Assembly (NCBI GenBank): GCA_017536285.1
Contig: JAFXHP010000017.1
Span: 1-6,026 of the forward strand
From: Clostridia bacterium
Lineage (GTDB): Bacteria > Bacillota_A > Clostridia > UMGS1883 > HGM11501
DNA: 6,026 nt
Direction of reading: 5' to 3'
The notes beneath the pieces are model-generated. The model searched no databases, was not told the origin of the DNA, and saw only the letters and a list, made by a program, of their open reading frames with translations. Below, one piece after another: positions 1-6,026 of the stretch; position 1 is the first letter of the stretch, and the number at the start of each line of letters is the position of its first letter. The position numbers and the translations under genes are program-made.

Positions 1-927
1 GCAATGTCCGCAGTAGGTGCAGTCCCCGATGTAGGCGTGGCGGGGCATTTTTGAAAGGGCGGTTGCATAGTCCTTTTCTTCCTCTGTGGCGTTTTCATAA
101 TAAACCGCCTCGTCCACCTGTGCGGGAGTTGAAAAGCCGATTAAAACCGAGGAAACGGAAGGTCTTGTGAGTGCGTAGTGTATGCACTGACAAGGAGTTA
201 ATGCAACGCCGAAGGGCGAACGCTTTGCATCCAGCAATCTTCCGCCGCCAAAGCCTTTCATTACGGTTATGGCAACGCCTTCGCTTTCGCAAAGCTTGTA
301 AAGGTCGGCTCTCTCCTTTGCTATGCCGGAAAGCCCTTCAGCATACTGTTCCACGAAATAATCGTCGATATTGTCCGTGGCGGGAAGCATATCGTAGGCG
401 GGGTTTAAGCTGAAAAGAATTACCTTTACTTTGCCCGTTAAAACCGCAAGGCGGGCAATTTCGGGGTTGTGGGTGGAAAGCCCGATGTGCTTTATCTTGC
501 CCTCGGCTCTTAAAGACTTCATATAGTCCATAAAGCCGCCAGTCATTACTTCTTCCCAGTCGGCAAGCTTATCCACAAAGTGAATCATCCCAAGATCCAT
601 ATAGTCGGTATGAAAGCGGGAAAGTAAATCGGCAAACGCCGCCCTGGTTTCGTCTAAATCTCTCGTTCTTACATACTGACCGTCCCTCCAGGCAGAGCCG
701 ATGTGTCCCTGAATTATCCACTTTTCTCTGTCTTCTTTAATGGCGTTTCCGATGTTACTTCTAACGTTCGGCTCTGACATAAAGCAGTCGATAAAGTTTA
801 TTCCCGCATCGCGGCAGCGGTCAACCACAGCACATACTGCATCAAACGTCTGGCGTTCAAGCCATTCGCCGCCAAGGGCAATTTCGCTTACCATTAACCC
901 TGTATTTCCAAGTTCTCTATATTTCAT
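1..927 (-). CDS. Aldo/keto reductase-like iron-sulfur protein (C-terminus cut by window edge)
   Basis: 309 codons are visible, from ATG at 927-925, preceded by GGAGGGA (933-939) five bases upstream; the frame is open to the left edge. The N-terminus MKYRELGNTGLMVSEIALGG is the classic AKR start. A (beta/alpha)8 AKR barrel follows: GINFID (residues 42-47), YMDLGMIHF (109-117), KHIGLSTHNPE (146-156) and VLIGFSTPAQV (261-271, the late cofactor-binding strand). The last visible residues are CTYCGHC (Cys303, 306, 309), the start of a 4Fe-4S ferredoxin-like motif, so this is the AKR subgroup with a C-terminal iron-sulfur domain. Asp47 and His116 of the AKR tetrad are present, but the usual Tyr five residues after the Asp is Glu52, and the strand that normally carries Lys reads WIIQGHIG (70-77). 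Ordinary NADPH carbonyl reduction is therefore doubtful; a redox role using the Fe-S centre is possible (inference). It has its own promoter and follows the GRE terminator, so it is a separate unit on the same strand. Confidence 0.9.
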   Translation of the reverse strand, partial: MKYRELGNTGLMVSEIALGGEWLERQTFDAVCAVVDRCRDAGINFIDCFMSEPNVRSNIGNAIKEDREKWIIQGHIGSAWRDGQYVRTRDLDETRAAFADLLSRFHTDYMDLGMIHFVDKLADWEEVMTGGFMDYMKSLRAEGKIKHIGLSTHNPEIARLAVLTGKVKVILFSLNPAYDMLPATDNIDDYFVEQYAEGLSGIAKERADLYKLCESEGVAITVMKGFGGGRLLDAKRSPFGVALTPCQCIHYALTRPSVSSVLIGFSTPAQVDEAVYYENATEEEKDYATALSKMPRHAYIGDCTYCGHC

Positions 928-1181: not shown

Positions 1182-3398
1182 TTACATACCTTCTAAGAAT
1201 CTGTCTACCACAAGCTGTCTGAATCTTGGTGAAAGGCTTGCAAAATATGCGGTGAAGCCTGTTACTCTTACAACTAAATCTGGATAAAGGTCGGGGTTTT
1301 CGTTGGCGGCAAGAAGCTTATCCTTATCAAGGATGTTGATGTTTATAAGTGTTCCGCCGTTTTCAAAATGAGCTTCAATCAAGCTTGTAACCGTGTCGAT
1401 TCCCGCCTCGTCATTGGCAAGATTGGGATCAAACTCAAGCTGTAATGGTGCCGTGTTTCCGTAGCCGCACTGAATTTTTGCGATGCCCTCGCTCTGTGCG
1501 GTAACGGCACCATCACGACGGAAGCCGGGATTGGGGTTTGCACCATGGGAAATGGGCTCCCCTGCCCTTCTGCCGTTGGGGGTTGCACCAACCTTAGAAC
1601 CGTATTCAATGGTTCTGCTCCAGGAAAACCAACCGGGAACTAAACACCTGCCCTCAGGCATTTTCTGCCCCTTGACGGTTTTTACCCAGGACTCTGTAAG
1701 ACGATTTGCCCAGGCATCCGACACCGTTTCGCCGCCGCAGTAGCGGGATGCTGAATTTAACATAAGGCGGATTCGCTCATCTGCAAAATTACTATCCAGT
1801 GCCTCATAAAGCTCATCCCAGGTAAGAAGTTTTTCCTTTTCGATGCGGCTTTCCATAGCTCCGAAGGAGTCGGCAACCACGGCAAGACCCGCTCCGTCAA
1901 TGCCCACGGTATAAAGAGAGGCACACTCTGAAATATCAAGGCCTTTTTCCAAAGTATTATGCATCATTAAATTCATAATAAGCTCAGGGGTTACGTCGTG
2001 GGCGTGGTCGATATGAAGATTTATGCCCTCGGCGGTGATTTCAACCGCTTTCTTAAGGTGCTCATTGTAAATTTCAAAAAGTCGCATCGTGGATTTTTCC
2101 TTTTCCGATTTCATATCCTTTAAGGCTTCTTCCATAACCTTTGCCACGTTGATTTTTACCGTGTCATTCATGGGGAATTCCTTGCCGGGCACGCACATCC
2201 AGTTACAGCCCACGGCAATTCTTTCACGGGCGGTTTTCTTATCCACGCCGTTTCTCATATAGCCCTCGCAAAGAGCCTTATCGTTACAGAATCTTGGCCA
2301 TCCGTTTTTATTTTTAAGAAGGCAGGAAACCGCCTTTTTAAGAAACGCCTTATCGCAGGCGGGATGCACCCTTACCGTTAAGTTGCAGGCGATGTTTATG
2401 GAATCTGCCGCGTCAAGAATAAGGTAGGAAAGCTTATTTGTCATATCGCAATCATTTTCGTCAACGCCCGAAATCTGATAGTAGTGGGGGTCAATTAAAA
2501 GAAGGTTTGCAATTAAAAATTTTGCTGTTTCATCGTCTGTTATTCCTTCCCTTACGTCCTTTTCGTAAAAGGGATATAAAAGTCCGTCAAGCTGAAAGCC
2601 TGCACCGTCACGGGTGTAGATTCGGGATGCACAGTTGAAAAACGCCGTCCACTGACAAGCCTCGTGGAAGGTAGAAGGTGCGCCCAGACGGATATTTTCA
2701 CAGACCTTTTTCATTGTTTCAAGGTTTTCCTTTATTTCGGGGCGGTTTTCCGTTTTTATCATCTCTCCGATTTTTGCAATATGGCGGTCGATAAAGGCAA
2801 CTATCGCAAGAACGCATCGCTCTTCCGCATCGTAAAACGCCTTTTTATCGGGATTTATTTCGCGGTATTTTTTAATTTTGTCAAGGAAACCGCCAAAGCC
2901 AAGCTCAAAGCCGATTTTATAGTCGCAGGCAAAGTGGGCATCTCCGTCAATACCGGTGGTGATGTTGTACTTTTCCTGCCAGGGCTTTAAGTGGTCATAG
3001 GGGAAGCGCTGTTCGTCCCAACGCTTACTCCACTGATTTGTGGCACCGTTTTTGATAAACTCAAGATTTTTAAGGTTGTTCTTAAGCCAGTCGGGCATAT
3101 AGTGAAGGTCGCCTCTGTAGTTTACAAGCATATCTCTCCATCGGCCGCAAAGCATTTCCATGGGGTCAACATATGGCTCGTGGGCATCAAGTACACGGCA
3201 GAAGTTTTCGCACATTCCGTCAAGTCCGTAAAAGCTTCCGTTTTCGCTGTTGTACCAGGGTGTTACGGCATAGCCCTCGGAAATGGGTACTGTGCCGAAA
3301 TCGTCTAAATCGGTAAAGCCGTTTTGCTTTCTTTTTAAGAGAGTATGACGGATTTTTGTTTCCCTCATACTCGAAAGTCTGTCTTTATATGTGAGCAT
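1182..3398 (-). CDS. Glycyl radical enzyme of unassigned function (PFL/dehydratase superfamily)
   Basis: 738 residues, complete, presumably cytoplasmic: no signal peptide, membrane segment or long N-terminal encapsulation extension. The C-terminal glycyl-radical box is clear, RVTGFTAYF (711-719) with radical Gly714. GATPNGRRAGEPISHG (604-619), GGTLININIL (681-690) and LDGLLYPFYEKD (270-281) are further GRE superfamily blocks. The thiyl-radical loop is RIAVGCNWMCVPGKE (393-407) with Cys398. Eliminase and dehydratase GREs have Glu two residues after this Cys (GCxE) and PFL has two adjacent Cys; here the +2 position is Trp400 and a second Cys is at 402. HFACDY (155-160) aligns with the HxxPDY-like block of dehydratase types, keeping His155. 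The protein is somewhat shorter than dehydratase-type GREs (roughly 790-850, from memory). Start: ATG 3398 has GGAGG at 3415-3411, a 12-base spacing, and lies 14 bases inside the activase gene; Met11 has no ribosome binding site. The superfamily call is firm; the reaction is unknown. Confidence 0.95.
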   Translation of the reverse strand: MLTYKDRLSSMRETKIRHTLLKRKQNGFTDLDDFGTVPISEGYAVTPWYNSENGSFYGLDGMCENFCRVLDAHEPYVDPMEMLCGRWRDMLVNYRGDLHYMPDWLKNNLKNLEFIKNGATNQWSKRWDEQRFPYDHLKPWQEKYNITTGIDGDAHFACDYKIGFELGFGGFLDKIKKYREINPDKKAFYDAEERCVLAIVAFIDRHIAKIGEMIKTENRPEIKENLETMKKVCENIRLGAPSTFHEACQWTAFFNCASRIYTRDGAGFQLDGLLYPFYEKDVREGITDDETAKFLIANLLLIDPHYYQISGVDENDCDMTNKLSYLILDAADSINIACNLTVRVHPACDKAFLKKAVSCLLKNKNGWPRFCNDKALCEGYMRNGVDKKTARERIAVGCNWMCVPGKEFPMNDTVKINVAKVMEEALKDMKSEKEKSTMRLFEIYNEHLKKAVEITAEGINLHIDHAHDVTPELIMNLMMHNTLEKGLDISECASLYTVGIDGAGLAVVADSFGAMESRIEKEKLLTWDELYEALDSNFADERIRLMLNSASRYCGGETVSDAWANRLTESWVKTVKGQKMPEGRCLVPGWFSWSRTIEYGSKVGATPNGRRAGEPISHGANPNPGFRRDGAVTAQSEGIAKIQCGYGNTAPLQLEFDPNLANDEAGIDTVTSLIEAHFENGGTLININILDKDKLLAANENPDLYPDLVVRVTGFTAYFASLSPRFRQLVVDRFLEGM

Positions 3399-4164
3399 AG
3401 CTTTTTAATTCCTCCATTTTTTCTTTTTCGGGAATGTTAAATTCGGGTGCGATAAGTCCCAACGCCGCCCTCTTCCCGTCTCCCAGCGGATGATAGGGCA
3501 AAAGCTCATATCCTGCCGCATTTTCAAGGGACATAACGAAGCTTTTTATGTTTTTAATTTCATCAACCGTGTCATTAATTCCCGGTATTATGGGCGTTCT
3601 TATTAAAATCGGGATACCAAGCTTATCCGCTTTTTTAATGTTTTCCCTTATTTTTTCGCCGGACACGCCGGTGTATTTTTTGTGCTTTTCGTCATCCCAT
3701 ATTTTAACGTCGCACATTATGTAGTCCATTTTCGATAAAACGTCGCTGTCGAAAATATACATCGAAGTTTCAATGGCTGTGTTTATGCCCTCATCGTGGC
3801 AAAGGTCGGAAAGGCTTGCCACAAATTCCTTTTGCAGCATAGGCTCGCCCCCCGAGAAAGTGACGCCGCCATCATTTTTATAATATGCCTTATCAAGCAT
3901 AACCTCGGCTAAAACCTCGTAAGAAGTCATTTCCTTTCCGCAAATGACTTTTGCCCCGGAAAAACAACCCTTATCGCACATATTACAGCCGATGCACTTT
4001 TCGGGATAGAAAAGGGTTTCGGGCTCTTTTTTTATACATTCGGGGTTGTGACACCAACTGCAGTTTAAGGGACAGCCCTTTAAGAAAACGGTGGTTCTTA
4101 TCCCCGGCCCGTCGTGGATGGATGAGCGCTGAATGTCAGCGACGATTCCTTTTACGGTCTGCAT
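3385..4164 (-). CDS. Radical-SAM glycyl radical enzyme activase
   Basis: 259 residues. It should reductively cleave S-adenosylmethionine and abstract hydrogen from Gly714 of the GRE encoded immediately downstream. GRE-activase signature HDGPGIRTTVFLKGCPLNC starts at residue 17. The radical-SAM cluster motif CxxxCxxC is Cys31, Cys35, Cys38. An auxiliary 4Fe-4S motif CIGCNMCDKGC follows (Cys57, 60, 63, 67). SAM-binding GGEP is at 105-108; CDVKIWDDEKHKKYTG (151-166) and RTPIIPGINDT (189-199) are typical of the family. Only one auxiliary CxxCxxCxxxC motif is present, whereas dehydratase-type activases usually carry two, so the ferredoxin-like insert is short. Start: a longer in-frame ORF reaches back to 4332 but lies inside the upstream gene; ATG 4164 begins the conserved domain and has GAGG at 4178-4175. 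The gene overlaps its upstream neighbour by 13 bases and the GRE by 14, implying coupled translation. Activase placed before the GRE is the reverse of the common order. Confidence 0.93.
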   Translation of the reverse strand: MQTVKGIVADIQRSSIHDGPGIRTTVFLKGCPLNCSWCHNPECIKKEPETLFYPEKCIGCNMCDKGCFSGAKVICGKEMTSYEVLAEVMLDKAYYKNDGGVTFSGGEPMLQKEFVASLSDLCHDEGINTAIETSMYIFDSDVLSKMDYIMCDVKIWDDEKHKKYTGVSGEKIRENIKKADKLGIPILIRTPIIPGINDTVDEIKNIKSFVMSLENAAGYELLPYHPLGDGKRAALGLIAPEFNIPEKEKMEELKSYAHI

Positions 4165-5255
4165 ACTACCTTTTCCTCGCATCCCGACTCGGTGGATTTT
4201 TTCGCCGCATCTAAAATTGCCATAACCTTCATATTCTGTGAAAGGGTTACTTCCTTTGTAAGGGGCGAGCCCGTTTTCTTTACATAGGTAAGATGCTCTG
4301 CAATGTTTTTCATATACTTTGGAAATTCGCATTTGGGAATTTCCAAGGGATTTCCGTACATATCAACAGCGAGAACGGTGCATACCCCGTCTTCCTTTTT
4401 GGTGTAAATTGCGCCCTTTTCGCACATAAGTACGGGGCCGCCCGGAAGAACAAGCTGAGGAATTGTCCACGTTCCCTCGGCAACGGTGTAGGTGTTATCG
4501 TATTTTATTACCGCACTCACGTTGTCCTCCGCATCGGAATAGGGCGTGTTTAAGTTGTCGGAATATGCATAAACGCTTTTTGCGTCGCCTTCCTGAAGCA
4601 GTGCGGAATACATTGCGCCGTAGCACAGAATGTCGAGAATGGCACCGCCGCCCTGATTCTTCTGATACCACCAGGTTTTGCTTCTTGCCTCGTCCGTCAT
4701 TTCCTCGGCGGTATCGGAAACACCTCTGTGCTTTGCACCTGCACCGAGGGGGCCTGTGTGGCCGTTTATGTAGTAAAGCTTTTTAAGGTCTCCCACCAGA
4801 CCGAGTCTGTATGCATTTATCATTTCATACATATAGGGGCGCCAGATTACGGGCCAGTTTACAATTGCCTCGATGCCGTACTTATTAACGGATTCTTCGA
4901 TTTTTAATGCCTCTTCATAGCTTACGGCGATGGGCTTTTCGATGCTTACGTTAATTCCCCTTTTCGCACACTCTTCCACCACGGCAGGCTTGTTTTTGTT
5001 CTCCGTTAAGATAAACGCCCAGTCGGGCTTTTCAGTATCAAGCATTTTAATATAGTCATCGTAAATGTTGTCACAATAGTTATTTTTTATATTTTCCTTG
5101 TTCCAGTCCCTTGTGTATCTCGCCTTTACGATTTCGGGGGTATCCGGCACAAGGTCGGCGGCAGCAGCTAAAGTAATCCCCTCCGCCTCGGTTATGTATA
5201 AGGCAATTTCGTTAACGTGCATATGTGCACAACCAATAATTACAGCTTTAATCAT
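4152..5255 (-). CDS. Gfo/Idh/MocA-family NAD(P)-dependent oxidoreductase
   Basis: 367 residues, first gene of the operon. N-terminal Rossmann fold: MIKAVIIGCAHMH, where the usual GxGxxG loop is G8-C-A-H-M-H, followed by DWAFILTENKNKP (78-90) and the family hallmark EKP (106-108) with likely catalytic Lys107. The C-terminal alpha/beta domain contains GGGAILDILCYG (202-213): Asp208 and Tyr212 stand where many relatives have Asp-x3-His, resembling the glucose-fructose oxidoreductase/dihydrodiol dehydrogenase branch. Known members oxidise or reduce sugars, inositols and related polyols; the exact substrate is not readable. It probably prepares the GRE substrate or handles its product (inference from the operon). 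Start: ATG 5255 has AAAGGAGG seven bases upstream; the frame extends to 5333 but the extra 26 codons cross the promoter. The TAA stop lies within the start of the activase gene. Confidence 0.93.
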   Translation of the reverse strand: MIKAVIIGCAHMHVNEIALYITEAEGITLAAAADLVPDTPEIVKARYTRDWNKENIKNNYCDNIYDDYIKMLDTEKPDWAFILTENKNKPAVVEECAKRGINVSIEKPIAVSYEEALKIEESVNKYGIEAIVNWPVIWRPYMYEMINAYRLGLVGDLKKLYYINGHTGPLGAGAKHRGVSDTAEEMTDEARSKTWWYQKNQGGGAILDILCYGAMYSALLQEGDAKSVYAYSDNLNTPYSDAEDNVSAVIKYDNTYTVAEGTWTIPQLVLPGGPVLMCEKGAIYTKKEDGVCTVLAVDMYGNPLEIPKCEFPKYMKNIAEHLTYVKKTGSPLTKEVTLSQNMKVMAILDAAKKSTESGCEEKVVCRP

Positions 5256-5276: not shown

Positions 5277-5305
5277 ATTATAGTGCGAAAAAAGCCCAGT
5301 TTCAA
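5277..5305 (-). promoter_or_regulatory. Sigma-A promoter of the oxidoreductase-activase-GRE operon
   Basis: Minus strand: -35 TTGAAA (5305-5300), 17-base spacer (5299-5283), consensus -10 TATAAT (5282-5277). Transcription should begin near 5270, so the mRNA leader is only about 15 nt and opens with the Shine-Dalgarno sequence AAAGGAGG. A near-consensus promoter behind an AraC-type regulator suggests repression or modulation as much as activation (inference). CCCA (5295-5298) and TGGG (5306-5309) form a small inverted repeat around the -35. Confidence 0.75.
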
Positions 5306-5319
5306 TGGGAAATATTAAG

Positions 5320-5329
5320 GAAAAATGTT
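5320..5329 (+). promoter_or_regulatory. Second copy of decamer GAAAAATGTT, between the divergent promoters
   Basis: Identical to the minus-strand decamer in the AKR promoter (1019-1010). It lies mostly in the 22-bp gap between the two divergent -35 boxes and overlaps the first bases of the araC-side -35. This is where an operator serving both promoters would be expected. Low sequence complexity limits confidence. Confidence 0.2.
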
Positions 5330-5356
5330 GCAATATTTTGATATTTAATATATAAT
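5328..5356 (+). promoter_or_regulatory. Promoter of the AraC-family gene, predicted leaderless start
   Basis: -35 TTGCAA (5328-5333), 17-base spacer (5334-5350), consensus -10 TATAAT (5351-5356). The normal spacing puts the first transcribed base at 5363, which is the A of the ATG. An A/T palindrome, ATATT-T-AATAT (5341-5351), overlaps the -10 and could be an autoregulatory site, though it is low in complexity. Confidence 0.65.
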
Positions 5357-5362
5357 GGGGCT

Positions 5363-6026
5363 ATGAACAATATTTTCACCGCTTTTAAAGAGCATAAAGA
5401 TTTTTCAAAAAGCATACCTTTTTCGGTGATTTATACGACCTTTGACCGTGATGAGCTTGTCGCACCCCACTATGCGGAAACTGTTGAGATTTTGCTTTTT
5501 TCAGGGGCGACGGGCGAGGTGATTATAGGAGGACACCGCTATAAGCTGTCGGGCAATCAGGTTTTTTATATTCCGCCGGAAACAGTTCATTCAATGAGCT
5601 ATAAAAAAAGCAGCGGTAATCTCTTAAACGTAAAGCTTTCCCCCGAGGGCTTTTCGCCCTTTTTGAGCTTTGAGGCACTTTTGGCATCCGAGGGAAAAAG
5701 CCTTATGTCAATTGACGTAAATCCCGACTGCTTTGATGAAATTTTGCCCATTGTGAACGCTTTGGCAAAAGCCGAAGATATATTTTCGGCAACAAGCATT
5801 GCCGTATCCCTTTTTTCTCTTCTTCGCACCTTCAGCCGTGAGGAAGTTCTCCCATCGGGTAACTCCTTTGACGAAAGTGAGCTTCGGGAAATTATAAACT
5901 ATACCAAGCTTCATTTCCGTGAGAAAATATCTATTTCCGATATAGCGGAAAAAATGGGCTACAGTAAGTTTTATTTCTGCACAAAGTTTCGGGAAAGTGC
6001 AGGAATTACCTATCTTTCCTATCTTA
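5363..6026 (+). CDS. AraC-family transcriptional regulator (C-terminus cut by window edge)
   Basis: 221 codons are visible; family members are usually about 270-300 residues, so roughly the last quarter is missing. The N-terminal half has a cupin-like sensor pattern: APHYAETVEILLFSGATGEV (34-53), then GHRYKLSGNQVFYIPPETVHSM (57-78), the typical G-x-x-x-x-x-x-G-x-x-x-x-I-P-x-x-x-H strand series of AraC sensor domains that bind small ligands. A helical linker follows, then the first DNA-binding helix-turn-helix at about 189-221 (ISISDIAEKMGYSKFYFCTKFRESAGITYLSYL spans this; key residues DIAEKMGYS and FCTKFRES). The second HTH lies beyond the window. ATG 5363 is the only good start: an in-frame stop is at 5339-5341 and no other start codon lies between. 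No Shine-Dalgarno fits; GGGG (5357-5360) is only two bases from ATG. Divergent placement makes it the likely regulator of the GRE operon. Confidence 0.93.
   Translation, partial: MNNIFTAFKEHKDFSKSIPFSVIYTTFDRDELVAPHYAETVEILLFSGATGEVIIGGHRYKLSGNQVFYIPPETVHSMSYKKSSGNLLNVKLSPEGFSPFLSFEALLASEGKSLMSIDVNPDCFDEILPIVNALAKAEDIFSATSIAVSLFSLLRTFSREEVLPSGNSFDESELREIINYTKLHFREKISISDIAEKMGYSKFYFCTKFRESAGITYLSYL

Follow-up and report, generated by a model that had tools for sequence, protein, structure and literature searches.

We examined a 6,026-nucleotide stretch of a gut Clostridia bacterium assembly (contig JAFXHP010000017.1; the whole stretch is referred to here as the window), which encodes an oxygen-sensitive enzyme of 738 residues, a glycyl radical enzyme (GRE), on its minus strand (1182..3398; identified from its open reading frame (ORF), Pfam matches and trees). 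Alignments and trees indicate that this GRE almost certainly belongs to a real, distinct and apparently unstudied class, here called the W-class, in which the residue two positions after the catalytic Cys (Cys+2) is Trp. The protein passes the Pfam cut-offs of both GRE domains, PFL-like (307.8 bits, cut-off 24.3) and Gly_radical (59.5 bits, cut-off 22.2), and its AlphaFold2 model has a predicted local distance difference test score (pLDDT) of 87.5 and a predicted template modelling score (pTM) of 0.90. The Cys loop (Arg393 to Val403, RIAVGCNWMCV; 2190..2222, minus strand, as for all residue coordinates below) contains the catalytic Cys398 (2205-2207), Trp400 at Cys+2 (2199-2201) and Cys402 at Cys+4 (2193-2195). 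An earlier, sequence-only reading of the window had described this GCNWMC loop at the same position and had found the GRE active-site His155 (2934..2936) and the box around the glycyl radical site, Gly714 (1257..1259, in RVTGFTAYF), to be intact; the alignments described below agree on each point.

The loop is shared widely among relatives. GCNWMC is present in all 120 homologues listed (the best 120 of 1747 matches, the window's own protein being one of them; lowest identity 79%), on many contigs, which refutes the explanation that an error of sequencing or assembly has altered the loop of an ordinary member of a known GRE family. Related loci were collected by a genome scan seeded with the peptide AVGCNWM, from which 80 of 165 loci were kept; the closest, L001, lies in a goat-colon Clostridia metagenome-assembled genome (MAG) and encodes a GRE 99% identical to that of the window. 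One of the 80 loci (L042) gave no GRE ORF and one of the remaining 79 was unread by the loop pattern. All 78 readable loci have Trp at Cys+2, with Asn or His at Cys+1, a result that is partly by construction because of the seeding peptide. The residue at Cys+4 is C, S, A or G across these loci, and outer clade members carry GCQWFC, GCHWLA and GCNWTA loops. The signature of the loop is therefore GC[N/H/Q]W rather than GCNWMC, and the second Cys, which the sequence-only reading had pointed out, is not a trait of the class.

Because the scan had been seeded with the loop peptide, a second sample was made from PF02901 matches, 101 in number, in 16 genomes that carry the Trp-loop class. Among these, 85 ORFs of at least 550 residues passed a Cys- or Gly-motif pattern and were then cut to 79; the motif filter dropped several loci (apparently PFL-type ones, that is, of the pyruvate formate-lyase type, among them) together with short fragments. 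The final 83-row alignment (A3) comprises 77 of the 79 ORFs, the window GRE, Escherichia coli PflD, YbiW and PflB, the second GRE of locus L049, and L080; L115, whose genome is also that of L001, and the truncated Trp row L142 were left out. At Cys+2, 22 rows have Trp, 53 Glu, three Gln and two (PFL type) Ser, and Asp, Gly and Arg occur in one row each. Outside the Trp rows, and with the two PFL-type rows set aside, 59 rows remain for comparison: 53 of them have Glu at Cys+2, including PflD and YbiW, and none has Trp. The claim that Glu is usual at this position and that PFL has a Cys-Cys pair thus holds as tested, the pair being found in PflB.

The Trp rows form a clade of their own. In a tree of the 83 rows, built without the columns of the loop and of other traits and with PflB as the outgroup, all 22 lie on one side of a single branch with a Shimodaira-Hasegawa-like approximate likelihood ratio test (SH-aLRT) support of 99. 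A mixture-model tree of 39 rows (16 of the 22 Trp rows and 23 of the 61 others) gave the Trp clade a bootstrap support of 99 and an SH-aLRT support of 98, and the clade is present in 98% of 200 bootstrap trees. PflD, YbiW, L083 (which passes the NCBIfam HypD cut-off) and L102 (which passes the HpsG cut-off) all fall outside it. CutC, HPAD, IAD, IslA and the X-succinate synthases are absent from the trees as named references, and with the clade profile their PDB chains reach lower scores than PflD. Nowhere in the trees did the window GRE fall within a same-loop family whose substrate is known, the outcome that the sequence-only reading had named as telling against its proposal of a likely uncharacterised GRE class.

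The clade is also set apart by a set of residues that are conserved together. Trp400 (22/22 clade rows vs 0/59 of the comparison rows), His618 (1545..1547; 22/22 vs 0/59), Asp501 (1896..1898; 21/22 vs 0/59) and Arg393 (21/22 vs 0/59) are specific to it, and Gln653 (22/22 vs 1/59) and Thr713, beside the radical Gly (22/22 vs 1/59), are nearly so. At two positions where Gln is near-constant elsewhere the clade has Asn686 (22/22 vs 0/59) and Arg727 (21/22 vs 1/59).

No NCBIfam equivalog, those for HypD, CutC, HpfG/HpsG, IAD, HPAD and PFL included, reaches its cut-off with the window GRE (best 225.9 bits vs 1109). Among the solved chains listed, the nearest fold matches are the CXE eliminases PflD and glycerol dehydratase, at 23-24% identity. 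PflD (1,5-anhydromannitol-6-phosphate lyase of E. coli, PDB 8yjo; Streptococcus, 8id0) is 24% identical and has a GCVE loop in place of GCNW, and E. coli pflD has phosphotransferase system and fsaB genes nearby, neither of which was seen in the window. In comparison with the B12-independent glycerol/propanediol dehydratases (1r8w, 9rco, 5i2g), the CXE Glu is replaced by Trp, and the dehydratase rows L081 and L082 have His-Ser at columns 263-264 where the window GRE has Arg-Asp. HypD likewise has a GCVE loop, and the window GRE scores 212.7 bits against the HypD cut-off of 1100. PFL belongs to the same superfamily and resembles the window GRE in having a residue other than Glu at Cys+2 (Ser in PflB); its adjacent Cys-Cys pair (CCVSP in E. 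coli PflB) is missing from the window GRE, which has a single Cys (Gly397-Cys398). Nor are the X-succinate synthases its closest kin among the solved GREs: benzylsuccinate synthase (4pkc) and MASS (9o8u) reach 106 and 134 bits against the clade profile, far below the 275 bits of PflD. An aminoacyl radical enzyme, in which Ala, Ser or Thr replaces the radical Gly, is excluded by the presence of Gly714. Such enzymes are also non-canonical GRE relatives, found mostly in gut MAGs (PMC11528403); they alter the Gly, whereas the W-class keeps the Gly and alters the Cys loop. A Trp-loop GRE class was not found in searches of the open-licence PMC literature, which is no proof of absence; a review (PMC11574389) describes the functions of many abundant gut GREs as unknown.

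W-class GREs are very probably active enzymes, as judged from their conserved residues and gene order. An inactive or regulatory GRE-like protein would fit the loss of a Glu on which two studied eliminases depend; Cys398, Arg711 and Gly714 are, however, invariant in 83/83 aligned GREs, His155 is kept in 22/22 clade rows (50/59 outside), and an activase gene directly precedes the GRE gene in 66 of 79 loci, which together make such a protein very improbable.

The window GRE has the predicted fold and the active-site His of an eliminase and lacks Glu at Cys+2, as do all 22 clade rows. This Glu belongs to the published CXE motif of GRE eliminases (PMC7077986, PMC8473560), and E470Q in IslA (PMC8473560) and E436Q in HypD (PMC7077986) abolish activity. 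On that basis an enzyme of this kind should not lose its Glu unreplaced, a point in favour of a radical enzyme that is not an eliminase and that would catalyse another reaction, isomerisation, epimerisation, C-C cleavage or addition for instance, without a CXE base. The changes at otherwise near-constant positions (Gln686 to Asn, Gln727 to Arg), with Thr713 beside the radical Gly, point the same way. PFL works without the CXE Glu, and the X-succinate synthases also react without it. The best profile and fold matches are nevertheless CXE eliminases, the Cys-Cys pair of PFL is absent and the X-succinate synthases score far lower than PflD, and we consider a non-eliminase unlikely.

The missing CXE Glu would mean either that the base has moved or that the reaction is different. 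The sequence-only reading had offered these same two options, different chemistry or another residue in the role; different chemistry is possible, and a moved base at least as likely. Its description of the enzyme as lacking the usual general base is correct for the CXE Glu only, because some CXE GREs also have Glu407 and Asp412. On balance, from sequence comparison and gene context, we lean towards an active eliminase-like GRE that acts on an unphosphorylated sugar or polyol and uses another residue as base. Eliminase chemistry with a moved base, taken by itself and resting for the eliminase part on how the enzyme is related to PflD and to glycerol dehydratase, is a serious candidate that falls just short of probable. 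A bolder proposal, that the class swapped the CXE base for Trp and carries out on unphosphorylated sugars a radical reaction unlike that of any known GRE (candidates being an isomerisation, an epimerisation or a ring opening, with Asp412/Asp501 moving the proton), appears doubtful; if true, it would give gut and sediment anaerobes a radical path into hexose or mannoside catabolism that needs no kinase.

Four acidic residues could serve as the base for proton transfer: Asp412, Asp501, Glu407 and Asp264. Glu407 (2178-2180) and Asp412 (2163-2165), which mark the ends of the segment 2163..2180, are each present in 22/22 clade rows and are not unique to the clade (11/59 and 10/58 elsewhere, respectively; Asp412 also in PflD, L081 and L082). 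Trp593 (1620..1622), which the clade-profile alignment places opposite the substrate-contacting Thr645 of HypD, is invariant in the 22 rows of alignment A2, and the segment around Tyr306-Gln308 corresponds, in that profile alignment, to a HypD stretch that includes Ser334 to Phe340 and is six residues longer. These two correspondences point to an aromatic pocket. Several details weigh against this assignment of roles. The occurrence of Glu407 in other GREs makes it a weak candidate; just 17 of the 22 clade rows have an acidic residue (Asp or Glu) at position 264; and in alignment A3 three outer members of the clade carry His or Phe instead of Trp593, which the other 19 clade rows keep.

In the eliminase-like mechanism that we favour, the activase would install the radical on Gly714, and Cys398 would then become a thiyl radical and abstract hydrogen from a carbon that adjoins a hydroxyl group; the substrate would be an unphosphorylated sugar, a polyol or a ring derived from a sugar. 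An aromatic platform for this ring could be made up of Trp400, Trp593 and Tyr306. Proton transfer, the role of Glu in CXE enzymes, may fall to Asp412, Asp501, Glu407 or Asp264, perhaps via His155, and C-O elimination or ring opening would then yield a deoxy-keto sugar. The neighbouring Gfo/Idh/MocA (Gfo/Idh) oxidoreductase, and in the window perhaps also the aldo/keto reductase, would oxidise the precursor or reduce the product. A clade that does without the CXE Glu shows that GREs can either solve acid-base catalysis in another way or carry out a different reaction, and the W-class operon points to partner enzymes that would be useful for finding the substrate.

In the window, a minus-strand operon runs from the Gfo/Idh oxidoreductase (4152..5255; PF01408, PF22725) through the activase (3385..4164; start codon inferred) to the GRE; the oxidoreductase gene shares 13 bases with the activase gene at the latter's inferred start, and the activase gene shares 14 with the start of the GRE gene. 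The activase scores 270 bits against TIGR02494 (cut-off 174) and contains the radical SAM CxxxCxxC motif and a CxxCxxCxxxC ferredoxin-type motif. A divergent AraC-type regulator (5363..6025, plus strand; PF00165, PF02311; cut by the window end) would be consistent with an inducible catabolic operon.

Gene context across the W-class loci, together with the putative aromatic pocket, suggests that the substrate is probably of carbohydrate type. Gfo/Idh genes number 175 in the 1.23 Mb of W-class loci, with at least one in 55 of 80 loci, and seven in the 0.33 Mb of 20 control loci, where they occur in six; the controls are hand-chosen loci, mostly on longer contigs, that surround different GREs in three of these genomes. 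The gene immediately upstream of the activase is of the Gfo/Idh type in 44 of 51 testable loci of L001-L059 and in 4/19 of L060-L080. With queries that themselves came from W-class loci, we also found a Hyi-type TIM barrel (17/80 W-class loci vs 0/20 controls), a flavin adenine dinucleotide (FAD) oxidoreductase (12/80 vs 1/20) and a small cupin (11/80 vs 0/20).

Sugar genes are present in loci of several phyla. A cupin gene directly follows the GRE gene in six Bacteroidota loci (L067, L072, L074, L076, L078 and L079), and loci of this phylum further contain GH92 (L067, L072, L074) or GH47 (L076, a locus of Labilibaculum filiforme); a sugar porter is encoded in L072 and L076 and a RhaT-like transporter in L065 and L078. 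GH130-type genes occur in the Clostridia loci L061 and L062. GH92 and GH47 are alpha-mannosidase families, and GH130 comprises mannoside phosphorylases.

Other facts count against a carbohydrate substrate. The controls come from three Clostridia genomes only, and 6/20 of them also have Gfo/Idh genes; the Gfo/Idh profile, derived from genes of W-class loci, favours such loci; an MGH1-type glycosidase (its query again from W-class loci) occurs in 1/80 W-class loci and 1/20 controls; and mannoside enzymes were seen in few loci, none of them in the window's own group. Sugar genes are, moreover, common in such bacteria, and Gfo/Idh enzymes use many substrates. The Gfo/Idh and transporter genes might therefore be incidental or serve other compounds, with a substrate that is not a carbohydrate. 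The differing gene content of the subgroups fits that alternative, as do the 25 of 80 loci with no Gfo/Idh gene in reach (partly perhaps from contig ends); given the Gfo/Idh enrichment over control GRE loci and the sugar genes in several phyla, we think it unlikely.

W-class members occur in Clostridia, Bacteroidota and Planctomycetota, with single cases elsewhere. A distribution scan with the clade profile (E <= 1e-120; at most five candidates per genome scored; based on profile score and not on the loop residue) matched 28 of 391 genomes in the class of L001's genome, 1/395 in the phylum of L078's, 3/199 in the phylum of L073's and 1/197 in the family of L080's. These counts include the genome at the centre of each sample, so that sampling beyond L001's class added two genomes only, and outside that class the W-class is rare in the groups sampled.

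Genomes with a W-class GRE can be rich in GRE paralogues: G001, G004, G005 and G007 have 13, 10, 15 and 22 PF02901 matches (the 22 representing at most 18 genes, four being split). Several of these paralogues (L081-L170) make up separate groups, with loops such as GCNQ, GCGE, TCVE and ACWE, and all 83 aligned rows keep the Cys and the Gly. Gln at Cys+2 is seen in L153 (GCNQ), in L141 (GCSQ) and in another GRE of L051, close to its W-class gene (L051:13021-15180; GCNQIDIMGK), which is likewise without the CXE Glu. In three loci (L048:5044-10214, L049:5061-10214, L052:5060-10211), a GCGE-type GRE (glycyl box GGFSARF) is followed by an activase and then by the W-class GRE, and one activase may serve both flanking GREs. 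The regions L031:11243-15525 and L005:11231-14597, near the W-class GRE, encode a protein of 337 residues, for which L031 gave no Pfam match; around the cupin gene they also encode two or three proteins related to one another, one of them with a sub-threshold 4Fe-4S match.

The aldo/keto reductase of the window (1..927, minus strand; PF00248; start inferred), which has a C-terminal 4Fe-4S region and is truncated at the edge of the window, is matched in only two of the 80 loci, L001 and L009, and is therefore not a partner of the class. In L001 (10404-11594) the gene is whole, adjoins the GRE and encodes a C-terminal 4Fe-4S dicluster region (Fer4 matches). The gap of about 250 bases between the GRE and aldo/keto reductase genes in the window holds two perfect inverted repeats, one at 1031-1062 (14-nt arms, 4-nt loop) and one at 1102-1139 (12-nt arms, 14-nt loop). 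By consensus matching only, promoter-like sequences precede the operon (TTGAAA-17-TATAAT; 5277..5305, minus strand; 11/12 matches) and the regulator (TTGCAA-17-TATAAT; 5328..5356, plus strand; 10/12 matches).
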